Origin: Halorientalis sp. IM1011
GTDB lineage: Archaea; Halobacteriota; Halobacteria; Halobacteriales; Haloarculaceae
Direction of reading: 5' to 3'
NCBI RefSeq assembly: GCF_001989615.1
Contig: NZ_CP019067.1
Span: 1,550,001 to 1,614,000, forward strand
Length of the DNA stretch: 64,000 nt
In this document: positions 54,785 to 60,589 of the stretch, piece after piece
Numbering within the stretch: the first letter of the stretch is position 1
Layout: each line of letters starts with the position of its first letter
Notes under the pieces: generated by a model
What the model was told of the DNA's origin: nothing
Databases searched by the model: none
What the model saw: the letters and a program-made list of their open reading frames with translations, nothing else
Translations under genes and position numbers: made by a program

Positions 54785-54884
54785 ACCGGCGCTTGTGGAC
54801 CGGCCGGCTTGTATCCACCCATCGCGGCTCCACGGCCGAGTCGCGCGCCAGATTCATGTGAACGGCTCGCGAACCGGCGAGCCG

Positions 54885-55631
54885 ATGACCCGCTGGGAGG
54901 ACCGGGCGAGCGAGCGACTCCGGGACGGCGAGACGATCGAAGCGAGCGTCCCGGTCGGAGACGACGGCCTCGTCGTCACTAGCCAGCGCGTGTTCGCGTT
55001 CACGCCCGAGGGCGACGGCGCGAACTTCCGGTCGGTCGAGCGACCGAACGTGGAGCGCGTCGGCACGGCGGCCACGAGCGAGACCGACTGGCTCGGCCGC
55101 GCCGGCAAGACCGCGCTGGCCGGCCTCGCGGGCGTCGCGCTCGGCCTGACCGTCGACTTCGGTGGCCTGCTGGATCTGGGCGACATCGGCGGGCAGGGGA
55201 CCAGCCGGGTCGGTATGGGCGGGATGCTCGCGGTCCTCCGGCAGGTGTCGCGGTTGCTGGAACTCCTCGACGAAGCCCTGCTGATCGGGGGGCTCCTCGC
55301 ACTGGCGGGCGCGCTCGGAGCGCTGGGGCTGTACCTCCAGAGCCGGACGGAGACGGTTCGGATCGCGGTCGCCGGCGACGAGGACCTGCACGTACCGGCC
55401 GACGACCGGCGTGACGCGGTCGCGCGGGTGCGCCGGCATCTCGCCGACGACGGTGGTCCGCCGACGCCGGTCGACGCGGGAACCCAAAAGCGGGACGCCG
55501 GCGTGAAGGACCGATCGGTCGACGCCGACCCGGCCGAAGGGAGCCCCCGCGACCGTGGGACGCTGGGGACAGTGCTGGACTCGCTACGGACGGAATCGGG
55601 GCCATCGAGTGACCGCGCCGACGAAGAGTAA
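54885..55631 (+). CDS. Membrane protein with PH-like N-terminal domain
   Basis: A 248-residue protein. Residues 1-65 ([34 protein letters not shown]) resemble a short bacterial PH-like domain. Two or three hydrophobic helices follow (~70-95, ~118-130 and ~135-155), then an [20 protein letters not shown] strand repeat and a long disordered acidic C-terminus. Probably a peripheral envelope-stress or scaffold protein; not a named family. It ends 35 nt before uvrC on the same strand. Confidence 0.65.
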
Positions 55632-55665
55632 TCCACATACGCCGCGGGCACGTACGGCCCTCGAG

Positions 55666-57423
55666 ATGGACCCGAACGAGGTTCGGGACCGGGCGGCCGA
55701 CCTGCCCCGCGAGCCGGGGAGCTACCAGTTCCTCGCCGACTCGGGGACCGTCCTGTACGTCGGGAAAGCCGTCGACCTGCGCGACCGGGTGCGCTCCTAC
55801 GCCGATCCCAGAAGCGAGCGCATCCGTCGGATGGTCGAGCGGGCCGTCGACGTGGAGGTGGCCGTCACCGACACCGAGACACAGGCCCTGCTGCTGGAAG
55901 CGAACCTCATCAAGCGCCACCAGCCCCGGTACAACGTCCGGCTGAAAGACGACAAGTCCTACCCGCTGGTGCAGTTGACCGACCACGCCGTGCCCCGGAT
56001 CGAGATCACCCGCGATCCCGACGACGACGCGACCGTCTACGGCCCCTTCACCGACAAGGGTCGCGTCGAGACGGCCGTGAAGGCCCTGCGGGAGACCTAC
56101 GGCCTGCGTGGGTGTTCGGATCACAAGTACAGCAACCGCGACCGCCCGTGTCTCGACTACGAGGTCGGACTCTGTACCGCGCCCTGCACCGGCGAGATCA
56201 GTCAGGGCGAGTACGCCGCGGACGTGGCGAGCGTCCGCCGGTTCTTCGAGGGCGAGACGGGCGTGCTGGCCGATCCCCTCCGCCAGGAGATGGAGCGAGC
56301 GGCACAGGGAGCGGAGTTCGAGCGCGCTGCCAACCTCCGGGACCGACTGCGCGCCGTCGAGGCGTTCCACGGTGAGGGCGGCGAGGCCGTCAGCGCCGGC
56401 GAGGGCGACCGCGAGCGGGCGGTCGACGTGCTCGGCGCGACCGTCGAGGGCGACGAGGCGACCGTCGCGCGCCTGCACGCTGCCGACGGGCAACTGGTCG
56501 AGCGCGAGCGCCACACGCTGGCCGCCCCCGAGGGCGAGGGCGGAGCGACCCGCATGGGTGCGGTGTTCGACGCCTTCGTCCCCCAGTACTACGCCGAGCG
56601 CGAGTTGCCCGACGCCATCCTGCTGCCAGAGCGGCCCGAGGACCCCGAACTCGACGCCTGGCTCGCCGCGGAGGGCGTCGACGTCCGGGTCCCGGGCGCG
56701 GGCCGGGAGGCCAAACTCGTCGATCTGGCGCTGAAGAACGCCCGCCGCGGCGTCGGCGCGCGGGGCGACGAGGGGGCAGCGCTCGCGAGCGCGCTCGGCA
56801 TTGACACACCTGTCGAGCGCATCGAAGGGTTCGACGTGAGCCACGCACAGGGGAGTGCCGTCGTGGGCAGTAACGTGACGTTCGTCGACGGGAGCCCCGA
56901 GAAGAGCGACTACCGGCGGCGAAAGCTCGACGAGCGCAACGACGACTACGCGAACATGCGCGCGCTGGTGCGCTGGCGGGCCGAGCGCGCCGTCGAGGGC
57001 CGGGACGACCGACCCGACCCCGACCTGCTGTTGATCGACGGCGGCGACGGGCAACTCGGGGCGGCACGGGACGCACTGGCCGAGACTGGCTGGAACGTCC
57101 CGGCCATCGCGCTCGCGAAGGACGAGGAACTGGTGGTTACTCCCGCCGGCACGTACGACTGGGACGACGACGCGCCGCATCTCCACCTGTGTCAGCGCGT
57201 CCGCGACGAAGCGCACCGCTTCGCCGTCCAGTACCACCAGTCGCTCCGGGACGACGTGTCGACGGCGCTCGACGACGTGCCCGGAGTGGGTCCGGAGACG
57301 CGCCGGCGACTCCTCCGGCGGTTCGGCAGCGTCGAGAACGTCCGCGGGGCAGACCCCGGCCAGCTCCAGCAGGTCGACGGCGTCGGCGAGAAGACCGCCG
57401 AGACCATCGCGTCGCGCCTGTGA
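55666..57423 (+). CDS. uvrC: Excinuclease ABC subunit C
   Basis: A 585-residue UvrC. GIY-YIG nuclease domain at the N-terminus ([20 protein letters not shown], 3' incision), Cys-rich loop ([20 protein letters not shown]), UVR motif (~200-235) for UvrB contact, UvrC RNase-H-like domain with [18 protein letters not shown] and [13 protein letters not shown] (5' incision), and a C-terminal tandem HhH ([20 protein letters not shown]). Bacterial-type nucleotide excision repair, with uvrB 5.2 kb downstream. Start ATG at 55666; slightly shorter than the ~600 typical length. Confidence 0.96.
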
Positions 57424-57536
57424 GGCCGACCGAGGAAGGAACCGGATTTATCCGACAGATCGTGCGATGGGGTTCGGGTGTCGTCTGGGTAAATTTCGTT
57501 CGTCCGTCAGTGCGAAAATTCTAAGGTGTCGTAGAT

Positions 57537-57715
57537 TGATATAAAATTGCACATGGGAGGGGGACCGGACAGCGCGAGCGCCGCCGGGGGGACGGCGCTC
57601 GGAGAACGGCCCGGGGCGTGGACGACCGGCCGGGAGACGCGGGTGTGTCGATCCGGGGGGAGTCGGCGGGACCGTCGGCGACGCGCTCGCGGGCGTGCCG
57701 GTGGGGGACCCGACG
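57537..57715 (+). promoter_or_regulatory. Promoter and long GC-rich leader of the surface-protein gene
   Basis: GATATAAAA (57537-57545) in an AT-rich island is a strong TATA candidate. Its transcription start would fall near 57566-57572, leaving about 145 nt of very GC-rich 5' untranslated sequence before the ATG at 57716. A second AT-rich box (GGGTAAATTTCG) lies near 57488. The 292-nt gap after uvrC contains no supported gene. Confidence 0.4.
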
Positions 57716-59281
57716 ATGGGACGTAACGCTGTTCGCTGGCCGCTGATCGGTGGGCTCGCCGTCCTCGTGGTCGTCGCGGTGCTCGGCGGCGTCGCGCTGT
57801 CGAACGCGGGACCGGCCAGCGCAGCGGTCGGGGCCCAGGCCGACGATACCGACTGGAACACGACCAATGGATCGGGTGCGGTGGCCGACGGCTGTCCGCC
57901 CGGCGACGCGCTCCGGAAGGAGGTGTACGACGGGCTGGAAGACCGCTCGGTCGAGGAGGTCCGGTCGGTGATTCCGGACGACGCCGTCCAGTGTCTCCCG
58001 GCGGACGTCCGCAACACTCTGGAACTCGAAAACGAAAGCGACGGCAACGGGACCGACGGCGACGACTGTCCGTCGGCGGAGGCGATCCGGGCGGAGGTCG
58101 ACACGGAACTCGTCACCAGTTCGAAAGCCGAGGTCCGAGCGGCCCTCTCGGAGGACGAGATCGCCTGCCTCCCCGCGGACGTGATCGACCAACTCGACAT
58201 TGGCACGGGATCGGAGAACGGGACGGAGGACTCGAACGACAGCAGTTCGGGCGGGATCGAGTGTCCGTCGGACGCGGAGATGCGGGTGGCGGTCGAGACG
58301 GCGCTCGCGGACGGTTCGGTCACGACGGTCCGCGAGCAGATCCCCGAGGACTACAGGGATTGCCTCCCGACGGACGTGAAAGACGAGTTGAACATCGAAG
58401 ACGACGCGGCGAACGCGTCGGCGGCTACGGACCCCGAGACCGAGAGCGGGGACGCGAGCGGGACCGAGACGGAGGGCGTCGACTGTCCGGCGCCCGAGAC
58501 GGTTCGGGAGGAGGTCAACATGACGCTCGAACGGATGTCGGCCGCGCAGTTCCGGACGATGGTCCACGAGGACTACGTGGAGTGTTTCCCGCCCGACGTC
58601 CGCGAGCGACTCGGGTTGACGGCGACCGCTGGGACGGACTCGGACGGCGGGACGCCGACCGACGCCGACACGTCGGTCGACGGCCCGGGGTCGACGGGGG
58701 CAGACTCGGGCGGTGCCGGGGTCGGCGGTGACCCCGCGACCGTCAGCAGCGACGAACTCACCGACTCGGACGACGACGGCGTGCCGGACCGGTACGACTA
58801 CGCGCCCCGCGATCCCGACGTGCAATCGAAAAACGACGTGCAGGCGGCCGGCGATCCCGGCAGTGACGACGGGAGCGGCGGGAGCGGCGACGAGATCCCG
58901 GTCGCCGCGGGGTCGGCGTTGCTACTCGTGCTGGCCGCCGGCATCGGTGGGGTCGTCTACCGGCGCTACGGCGGGCCGTCTGGCGGGGCCGACGACGAGT
59001 TGCCCCGGCCGTCCGAACCGGTGGCGACCGGCGAAGCGAGCGCCCAGCCCCACGACGTGTTCGGCGAGAGCGCGTTCGATCCCGACGGTGCCGCCGGTTC
59101 GGGAACGGAGTTCACCTTCGACGAGCACGGTGACGACGACGGGTTCGTCTTCGACAATGACGACGAAGACGTGATCACGCTCGACAGCGACGGGTCGGTC
59201 GCCGACGAGGAGGTCGACGCCGGCTTCGTCTTCGAGGGAGGCCCCGAACTCGACGAGGGTGGTGAACCGGCGGACGATTGA
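57716..59281 (+). CDS. Cell-surface protein with four two-cysteine repeats and a TSP3-like Ca2+ motif
   Basis: A 521-residue protein. Signal peptide (~8-36), four ~45-residue modules with cysteines at 60/93, 118/151, 183/216 and 257/290 (each pair 33 apart, e.g. CPSAEAIRAEV at the start and CLPADV at the end), joined by Asn/Ser/Thr/Asp-rich linkers. A DSDDDGVPDRYDYAPRDPDV segment (~345-364) matches a thrombospondin type-3 Ca2+-binding repeat. A transmembrane helix (~395-417) is followed by a ~100-residue acidic cytoplasmic tail. Many NxT/NxS sites. Probably a surface adhesin or sensor; the module is not one I recognise. Confidence 0.82.
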   Translation: MGRNAVRWPLIGGLAVLVVVAVLGGVALSNAGPASAAVGAQADDTDWNTTNGSGAVADGCPPGDALRKEVYDGLEDRSVEEVRSVIPDDAVQCLPADVRNTLELENESDGNGTDGDDCPSAEAIRAEVDTELVTSSKAEVRAALSEDEIACLPADVIDQLDIGTGSENGTEDSNDSSSGGIECPSDAEMRVAVETALADGSVTTVREQIPEDYRDCLPTDVKDELNIEDDAANASAATDPETESGDASGTETEGVDCPAPETVREEVNMTLERMSAAQFRTMVHEDYVECFPPDVRERLGLTATAGTDSDGGTPTDADTSVDGPGSTGADSGGAGVGGDPATVSSDELTDSDDDGVPDRYDYAPRDPDVQSKNDVQAAGDPGSDDGSGGSGDEIPVAAGSALLLVLAAGIGGVVYRRYGGPSGGADDELPRPSEPVATGEASAQPHDVFGESAFDPDGAAGSGTEFTFDEHGDDDGFVFDNDDEDVITLDSDGSVADEEVDAGFVFEGGPELDEGGEPADD

Positions 59282-59283
59282 CG

Positions 59284-59308
59284 GGAGGTCGAGCGTAGCG
59301 AGACCTCC
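59284..59308 (+). repeat. Hairpin with GNA-triloop core
   Basis: GGAGGTC (59284-59290) and GACCTCC (59302-59308) enclose GAGCGTAGCGA, the same 11-nt core type as at 23256-23282 (one base different). It begins 3 nt after the surface-protein stop. Confidence 0.6.
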
Positions 59309-59328
59309 TATCGTGCGAGCGGGGAGTG

Positions 59329-59355
59329 CGAGACTCGACCGTAGGGAGAGTCTCG
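59329..59355 (+). repeat. Second hairpin with compensated GNA-triloop core
   Basis: CGAGACTC (59329-59336) and GAGTCTCG (59348-59355) enclose GACCGTAGGGA. Compared with GAGCGTAGCGA the G-C pair in the core is swapped for C-G, keeping the fold. It is followed by a GC-rich palindromic stretch (GGGCCCGGCCC) around 59365-59376. Confidence 0.6.
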
Positions 59356-59413
59356 AAACGCGAGCGGGCCCGGCCCGCGAGCCGGGCAGCCCAAACCAGT
59401 TCGTTCACTAACA

Positions 59414-59443: not shown

Positions 59444-60589
59444 ATGAGCGACCGGGGCCGCGAGAGTCTCGCGTACAGGCTCGGACGGGCGAGCGCGAGC
59501 GGTGGCTCGCCGGCCTCGGCCCGCAGACTCGCAGCGACGCTGGCGGGCTTCGCCATCGTTCTCTTCCTCTTCGACGCGATCGGCGGAACGGAACTCGTCG
59601 GGATGCTCGTGCTGGCGATCGCGGTGGTCGCGGTCGACAGCGCCGTCGTGATCGTCCAGGCCACCGAGAAACAGGTCCTGACGGTGCTGGGGAGCTACCG
59701 GAAGACACTCGATCCGGGTCTCAACCTCGTGCCGCCGTTCGTCTCGTCGACCCACAGCTACGACATGCGGACCCAGACGCTGGACGTGCCCACACAGGAG
59801 GCGATCACGCGGGACAACTCCCCCGTCACCGCGGACGCCGTCATCTACGTGAAGGTGATGGACGCGAAGAAGGCGTTCCTGGAGGTCGAGGACTACACGC
59901 GGGCGGTCTCGAACCTCGCCCAGACGACGCTGCGGGCGGTGCTGGGCGACATGGAACTGGACGAGACGCTGAGCAGGCGCACCGAGATCAACACGGCCAT
60001 CCGCCGGGAACTGGAGGGGCCGACCGACGAGTGGGGCGTCCGGGTCGAATCGGTCGAGGTCCGGGAGGTGAAACCCTCCGCCGACGTGGAGGACGCGATG
60101 GAGCAACAGACCGCCGCCGAGCGTCGCCGCCGTGCGATGATCCTCGAAGCCCAGGGCGAGCGCCGCTCGGCCATCGAGCGCGCACAGGGTGACAAGCAGT
60201 CGGACATCATCCGCGCGCAGGGTGAGAAACAGAGCCAGATCCTTGAAACACAGGGCGACGCCATCTCGACGGTCCTGCGCGCGCGGTCCGCCGAGTCGAT
60301 GGGCGAGCGGGCGATCATCGACCGCGGTATGGACGCGCTCGACTCCATCGGGCGGAGCGAGTCGACGACGTACGTCCTGCCACAGGAACTGTCCTCGATG
60401 GTCGGCCGGTACGGCAAACACCTCACCGGCAGCGACGTGGCGGCGGACGGCGAGTCACTGGAGAGCCTGGACTTCGGCGCCGAGACCCGCGAACTCCTCG
60501 GGCTGGACGACATCGAGGAGACGCTGGAGACGCCCGATACCGAGGCCGAGCGGGCCGAGGGGGCCGCGGCCGAAGCCGAGGCCGACTGA
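59444..60589 (+). CDS. SPFH/Band 7 (stomatin-like) membrane protein
   Basis: A 381-residue protein. A soluble Ser/Gly/Ala N-terminus, two hydrophobic segments (~27-45 and ~50-68), then an SPFH domain (~70-210: VIVQATEKQVLTVLGSYRKT, LDPGLNLVPPFV, MRTQTLDVPTQEAITRDNSP, VTADAVIYVKV). A long coiled-coil tail follows (AERRRRAMILEAQGERRSAI, ERAQGDKQSDIIRAQGEKQS), ending in acidic residues. Band 7 proteins oligomerise in the membrane and scaffold proteases or channels. No NfeD partner is adjacent. Confidence 0.92.
   Translation: MSDRGRESLAYRLGRASASGGSPASARRLAATLAGFAIVLFLFDAIGGTELVGMLVLAIAVVAVDSAVVIVQATEKQVLTVLGSYRKTLDPGLNLVPPFVSSTHSYDMRTQTLDVPTQEAITRDNSPVTADAVIYVKVMDAKKAFLEVEDYTRAVSNLAQTTLRAVLGDMELDETLSRRTEINTAIRRELEGPTDEWGVRVESVEVREVKPSADVEDAMEQQTAAERRRRAMILEAQGERRSAIERAQGDKQSDIIRAQGEKQSQILETQGDAISTVLRARSAESMGERAIIDRGMDALDSIGRSESTTYVLPQELSSMVGRYGKHLTGSDVAADGESLESLDFGAETRELLGLDDIEETLETPDTEAERAEGAAAEAEAD

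Follow-up and report, generated by a model that had tools for sequence, protein, structure and literature searches.

The gene following uvrC in the window, i.e. in the whole stretch of 64,000 nucleotides of Halorientalis sp. IM1011 DNA analysed here (genome size 3.78 Mb), encodes an archaeal surface protein of an otherwise familiar kind, in which we found a real, uncatalogued domain of 45 residues. The domain is repeated four times, each time with two cysteines in a C-x32-C arrangement (Table 1). The 521-residue product contains exactly eight cysteines and all of them reside in these four modules. In 200,000 trials of random placement of eight cysteines, four pairs at a spacing of 33 never occurred and three pairs occurred 37 times. 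Pairwise identity between modules was 15-20/45. The best gapless self-alignment over 45 residues scored 98 compared to a mean of 34 and a maximum of 55 in 200 shuffles. Because the best score exceeded the shuffle maximum, the repeats are not due to chance. This bears out a preceding sequence-only reading, which had pointed to four cysteine pairs of equal spacing. That reading had also called disulfide-rich repeats rare in archaea; on this point the comparison covered cysteine content within the window, which was 1.5% for this protein versus 0.68% in the acidic ORFs.

Together with six proteins from the genus, 24 module copies were available. Paired cysteines, co-conserved at a fixed spacing as in disulfide-closed extracellular domains in general, were present in 24/24. 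Invariant over all copies were C, P, R, L, R, C, P, D and L; V, S and V/L were nearly so. The common layout proposed earlier had included an R..EV helix. Of this, the arginine holds in all copies, as does a V/I after it; the glutamate varies.

Table 1. Features of the module gene and of its neighbours, in window coordinates.
Feature	Position	Strand	Evidence
uvrC, upstream conserved neighbour marking the locus	55663..57423	+	Pfam UvrC domains; synteny
Surface protein gene, 521 aa, type I membrane topology (predicted)	57716..59281	+	ATG coincides with orthologue starts; six relatives in genus
N-terminal signal peptide or anchor, aa 1-37, probable cleavage near A37	57716..57826	+	hydrophobic run ~aa 8-28, two Arg before
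Module 1, aa 60-104, C60-C93	57893..58027	+	alignments; helices in models
Module 2, aa 118-162, C118-C151	58067..58201	+	alignments; helices in model
Module 3, aa 183-227, C183-C216	58262..58396	+	alignments; helices in model
Module 4, aa 257-301, C257-C290; closest to membrane, most conserved copy	58484..58618	+	orthologue identity, dN/dS
Ca2+-loop motif DSDDDGVPDRYD (TSP3/EF-like), aa 350-361	58763..58798	+	sequence
Transmembrane span, aa 394-416, ends Arg-Arg (YRRYGG)	58895..58963	+	hydropathy
Acidic cytoplasmic tail (predicted), aa 417-521	58964..59278	+	orthologue alignments
SPFH/Band_7 (stomatin-like) gene, downstream	59444..60589	+	PF01145 138.7 bits; synteny

AlphaFold2, run on 20 module rows, predicted a compact four-helix unit (pLDDT 87.9, pTM 0.61) with helices at 6-19, 22-28, 31-34 and 39-44. 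The full-length model was poor overall (pTM 0.22), and confidence was low for the linkers and the tail; it displayed four such helical units. The genome encodes a DsbB family gene adjoining a thioredoxin-fold, DsbA-like ORF with a WKCPAC motif, and because of this adjacent pair extracytoplasmic disulfides are plausible. The pair is located at about 1545070-1545985 of G000:C1 (L077 1465-2857), some 4-5 kb before the window. The DsbA-like product has a zinc-finger-like start (CPVC...HAWEAHG) and CPAC in the thioredoxin part. VKOR was rejected as the disulfide oxidant since the window genome had no VKOR match and has DsbB instead. Constant cysteine spacing in every copy, the lack of indels in four-copy orthologues, a confident helical model and the DsbA-like/DsbB pair make a folded, disulfide-closed helical module well supported, as the sequence-only reading had anticipated; the structure prediction it had called for returned a compact helical unit. 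Very probably, one intramodule disulfide closes each module. The paired cysteines might hold a metal or haem instead, and Cys-Pro at the first cysteine of every copy is a point in favour. However, a module offers only two cysteines and no conserved His or Met, export is predicted and the genome has its Dsb pair. We regard metal or haem ligation as very improbable.

The remainder of the protein agreed with the earlier description, which had listed a TSP3-like Ca2+ motif, a membrane anchor and an acidic cytoplasmic tail. The calcium loop (DxDxDGxxD) and the C-terminal span are present, and the tail counts 33 D/E versus 3 K/R. Four- and three-copy orthologues carry two such loops in tandem. The linkers between modules are acidic, of variable length and rich in N-glycosylation sequons; all eight N-x-S/T sequons (8/8) are in the ectodomain, seven within linkers, none in the tail. 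The N-terminus, the ectodomain sequons, the Arg-Arg-ended span and the acidic tail support a type I surface protein. In alignments the tail motifs FTFD, GFVFDN, DEDVITLDSD and GFVFEGG are kept across six orthologues; FxFD/FVFE motifs recur within the tail and are conserved in the tailed orthologues. Some 170 bases 5' of the ATG a TATA-like A/T-rich stretch was noted (~57533-57548). Such a leader is longer than usual for haloarchaea.

Searches against known families and folds were negative throughout. The module had no score above the curated cut-offs in Pfam and NCBIfam and no significant match in PHROGs. The module profile did not significantly match PDB chain sequences (hmmsearch, best E 0.42), nor did the predicted fold match PDB structures (Foldseek, E <= 0.001 required, best E 5.3) or the viral folds of BFVD. 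No relatives were found on phages, plasmids or viral contigs. DEK_C, UBM and DUF7508 were considered as module identity and dismissed, with scores far under the cut-offs. The sequence-only reading had not recognised the module, and neither did any of these collections.

Where does the module occur? The six other Halorientalis proteins carry 4, 4, 4, 4, 3 and 1 copies. A contig scan with an alignment as query named H. persicus, H. regularis, H. pallida and a Halorientalis MAG; with a single protein as query no match was obtained. Among eight genomes of the genus six have the module. The window genome, G002, G004 and G007 each encode four copies, G005 encodes three and G001 a single one; in G003 and G006 the search found no module. 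Profile searches covered overlapping samples of 146 genomes of the family, 392 of the order, 391 of the class and 393 of the phylum; for order, class and phylum the genomes were an even draw from larger sets. In the larger scans no more than 17 candidates were scored per genome. Among these sampled genomes no convincing copy was detected outside the genus. Sixteen out-of-genus matches with E of about 1e-4 to 0.05 were read on the strand of the match; none had a C-x32-C pair and several crossed a stop codon. On these sampled searches the module is apparently restricted to one genus.

G002, G004 and G005 share the gene order p249-uvrC-module gene-SPFH, which in G002 and G004 is followed by Usp and TauE. 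The G007 contig stops after the module gene. Wherever the contig continues, SPFH is directly 3' of the module gene. In G003, SPFH starts 76 bases after uvrC and the module gene between them is absent. An obligate partnership of SPFH with the module protein is weakened by G003. At 27 loci outside the genus, the roughly 1.5 kb flanking the SPFH homologue on each side contained neither uvrC nor a module gene. Absent at its site in G003, and with no module in G003 or G006, the module gene is dispensable in the genus. Because the site is occupied by a module protein, by a CBM35 protein (in G001, see below) or by no gene, we consider it a slot for variable surface proteins within the genus. Two features nearby are recorded. 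Between the module gene and SPFH, the sequence at 59281-59400 folds into two strong hairpins plus a GC-rich third stem (z -2.46), which could be a terminator or a processing site. The gene at 54882-55628, 5' of uvrC, is conserved in six congeners and had no Pfam match at E 0.01.

When the four four-copy orthologues were compared with the window protein, there were 0 gap columns over 180 module positions and 41-55 in the linkers; G005, with three copies, lacks one whole module. Against the window protein, dN/dS was 0.32-0.46 for modules compared to 0.49-0.79 for linkers, i.e. purifying selection is stronger on modules than on linkers. Module 4 was far more conserved than the others (78-84% identity to four-copy orthologues, dN/dS 0.19-0.26), and dN/dS of the Ca2+-loop region was 0.08-0.25. 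In a module tree, built from few columns, copies clustered by position across species. Module 1 did so clearly (99/97) and module 4 less clearly (91/86, not starred); module 3 grouped loosely and the remainder did not separate. From this positional grouping, the amplification is probably older than the species compared. The grouping also suggests position-specific roles of the copies.

What might such a protein do? With a probability of about 0.5, we propose a flexible surface stalk whose disulfide-closed beads serve as binding units in adhesion or recognition. The N-terminal signal would export the type I protein to the cell surface, where it would display four helical beads, each shut by its own disulfide, probably made by the DsbA-like/DsbB pair. 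Acidic, probably glycosylated linkers would separate the beads; the calcium-loop segment, the single membrane span and the conserved acidic tail would come after them. The beads would most likely be repeated binding units, and the tail may anchor or relay surface contact inside the cell. We infer binding mainly because a CBM35 congener occupies the same locus and because conservation is position-specific; surface exposure, glycosylation and a role of the tail are likewise deduced. Known binding domains are absent from the window protein.

Copy numbers of 1, 3 and 4 and varying linker lengths would suit inert stiff beads whose sole effect is to extend the stalk across the S-layer. Yet in a mere spacer one would not expect copies to group by position, clearly so for module 1 and less so for module 4, nor the conservation of module 4 to be far above that of the others. 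A passive spacer is therefore unlikely. Another possibility is a transmembrane sensor, in which ligand binding or redox sensing by the modules would be relayed through a cytoplasmic partner, perhaps SPFH, that the conserved acidic tail recruits. The tail motifs conserved in six orthologues and the SPFH gene immediately 3' are consistent with this. However, SPFH persists at the locus in G003 without the module protein, the G001 homologue is tailless and a signalling domain was not found. Consequently, a sensor appears about as unlikely as a spacer, and the binding stalk is preferred.

A wider scenario is put forward tentatively and is, on balance, doubtful: within a single archaeal genus, a helical domain stapled by a disulfide would have originated and multiplied to four copies, each specialised for its position, and at the corresponding surface-protein locus a congener would have an alternative, carbohydrate-binding architecture. 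The module is well defined, its locus is clear, its copy number varies naturally, one congener has an empty site and another carries a different head on a shared base. This makes it a compact case for how new extracellular domains originate in archaea. It also bears on whether haloarchaea build surface proteins with Dsb-made disulfides.

How does the module protein compare with known systems? A weak likeness to DEK_C (PF08766) in 2/20 modules (best E 0.023) was not significant, and the module is without a fold match to PDB chains. The likeness to TSP_3 (PF02412) is the DxDxDGxxDxxD motif between modules and membrane; it is confined to the calcium loop, does not extend to the modules and stays under the Pfam cut-off (25 bits; 13.8 bits in H. 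regularis, no score in the window protein). Albumin-binding GA modules are small helical beads in tandem on anchored bacterial surface proteins. They resemble the module as repeated helical beads; to our knowledge they are without paired cysteines, and the Pfam scan returned no match to them. The closest counterpart is the CBM35-stalk protein of G001 (L068 4260-5006 and L009 22-1788). It differs by its N-terminal CBM35 domain, absent from the window protein according to Pfam, by a long Thr-Glu repeat stalk, by a single module and by the lack of a cytoplasmic tail. The same uvrC-SPFH site, a C-x32-C module, the Ca-loop and the C-terminal anchor are common to both.
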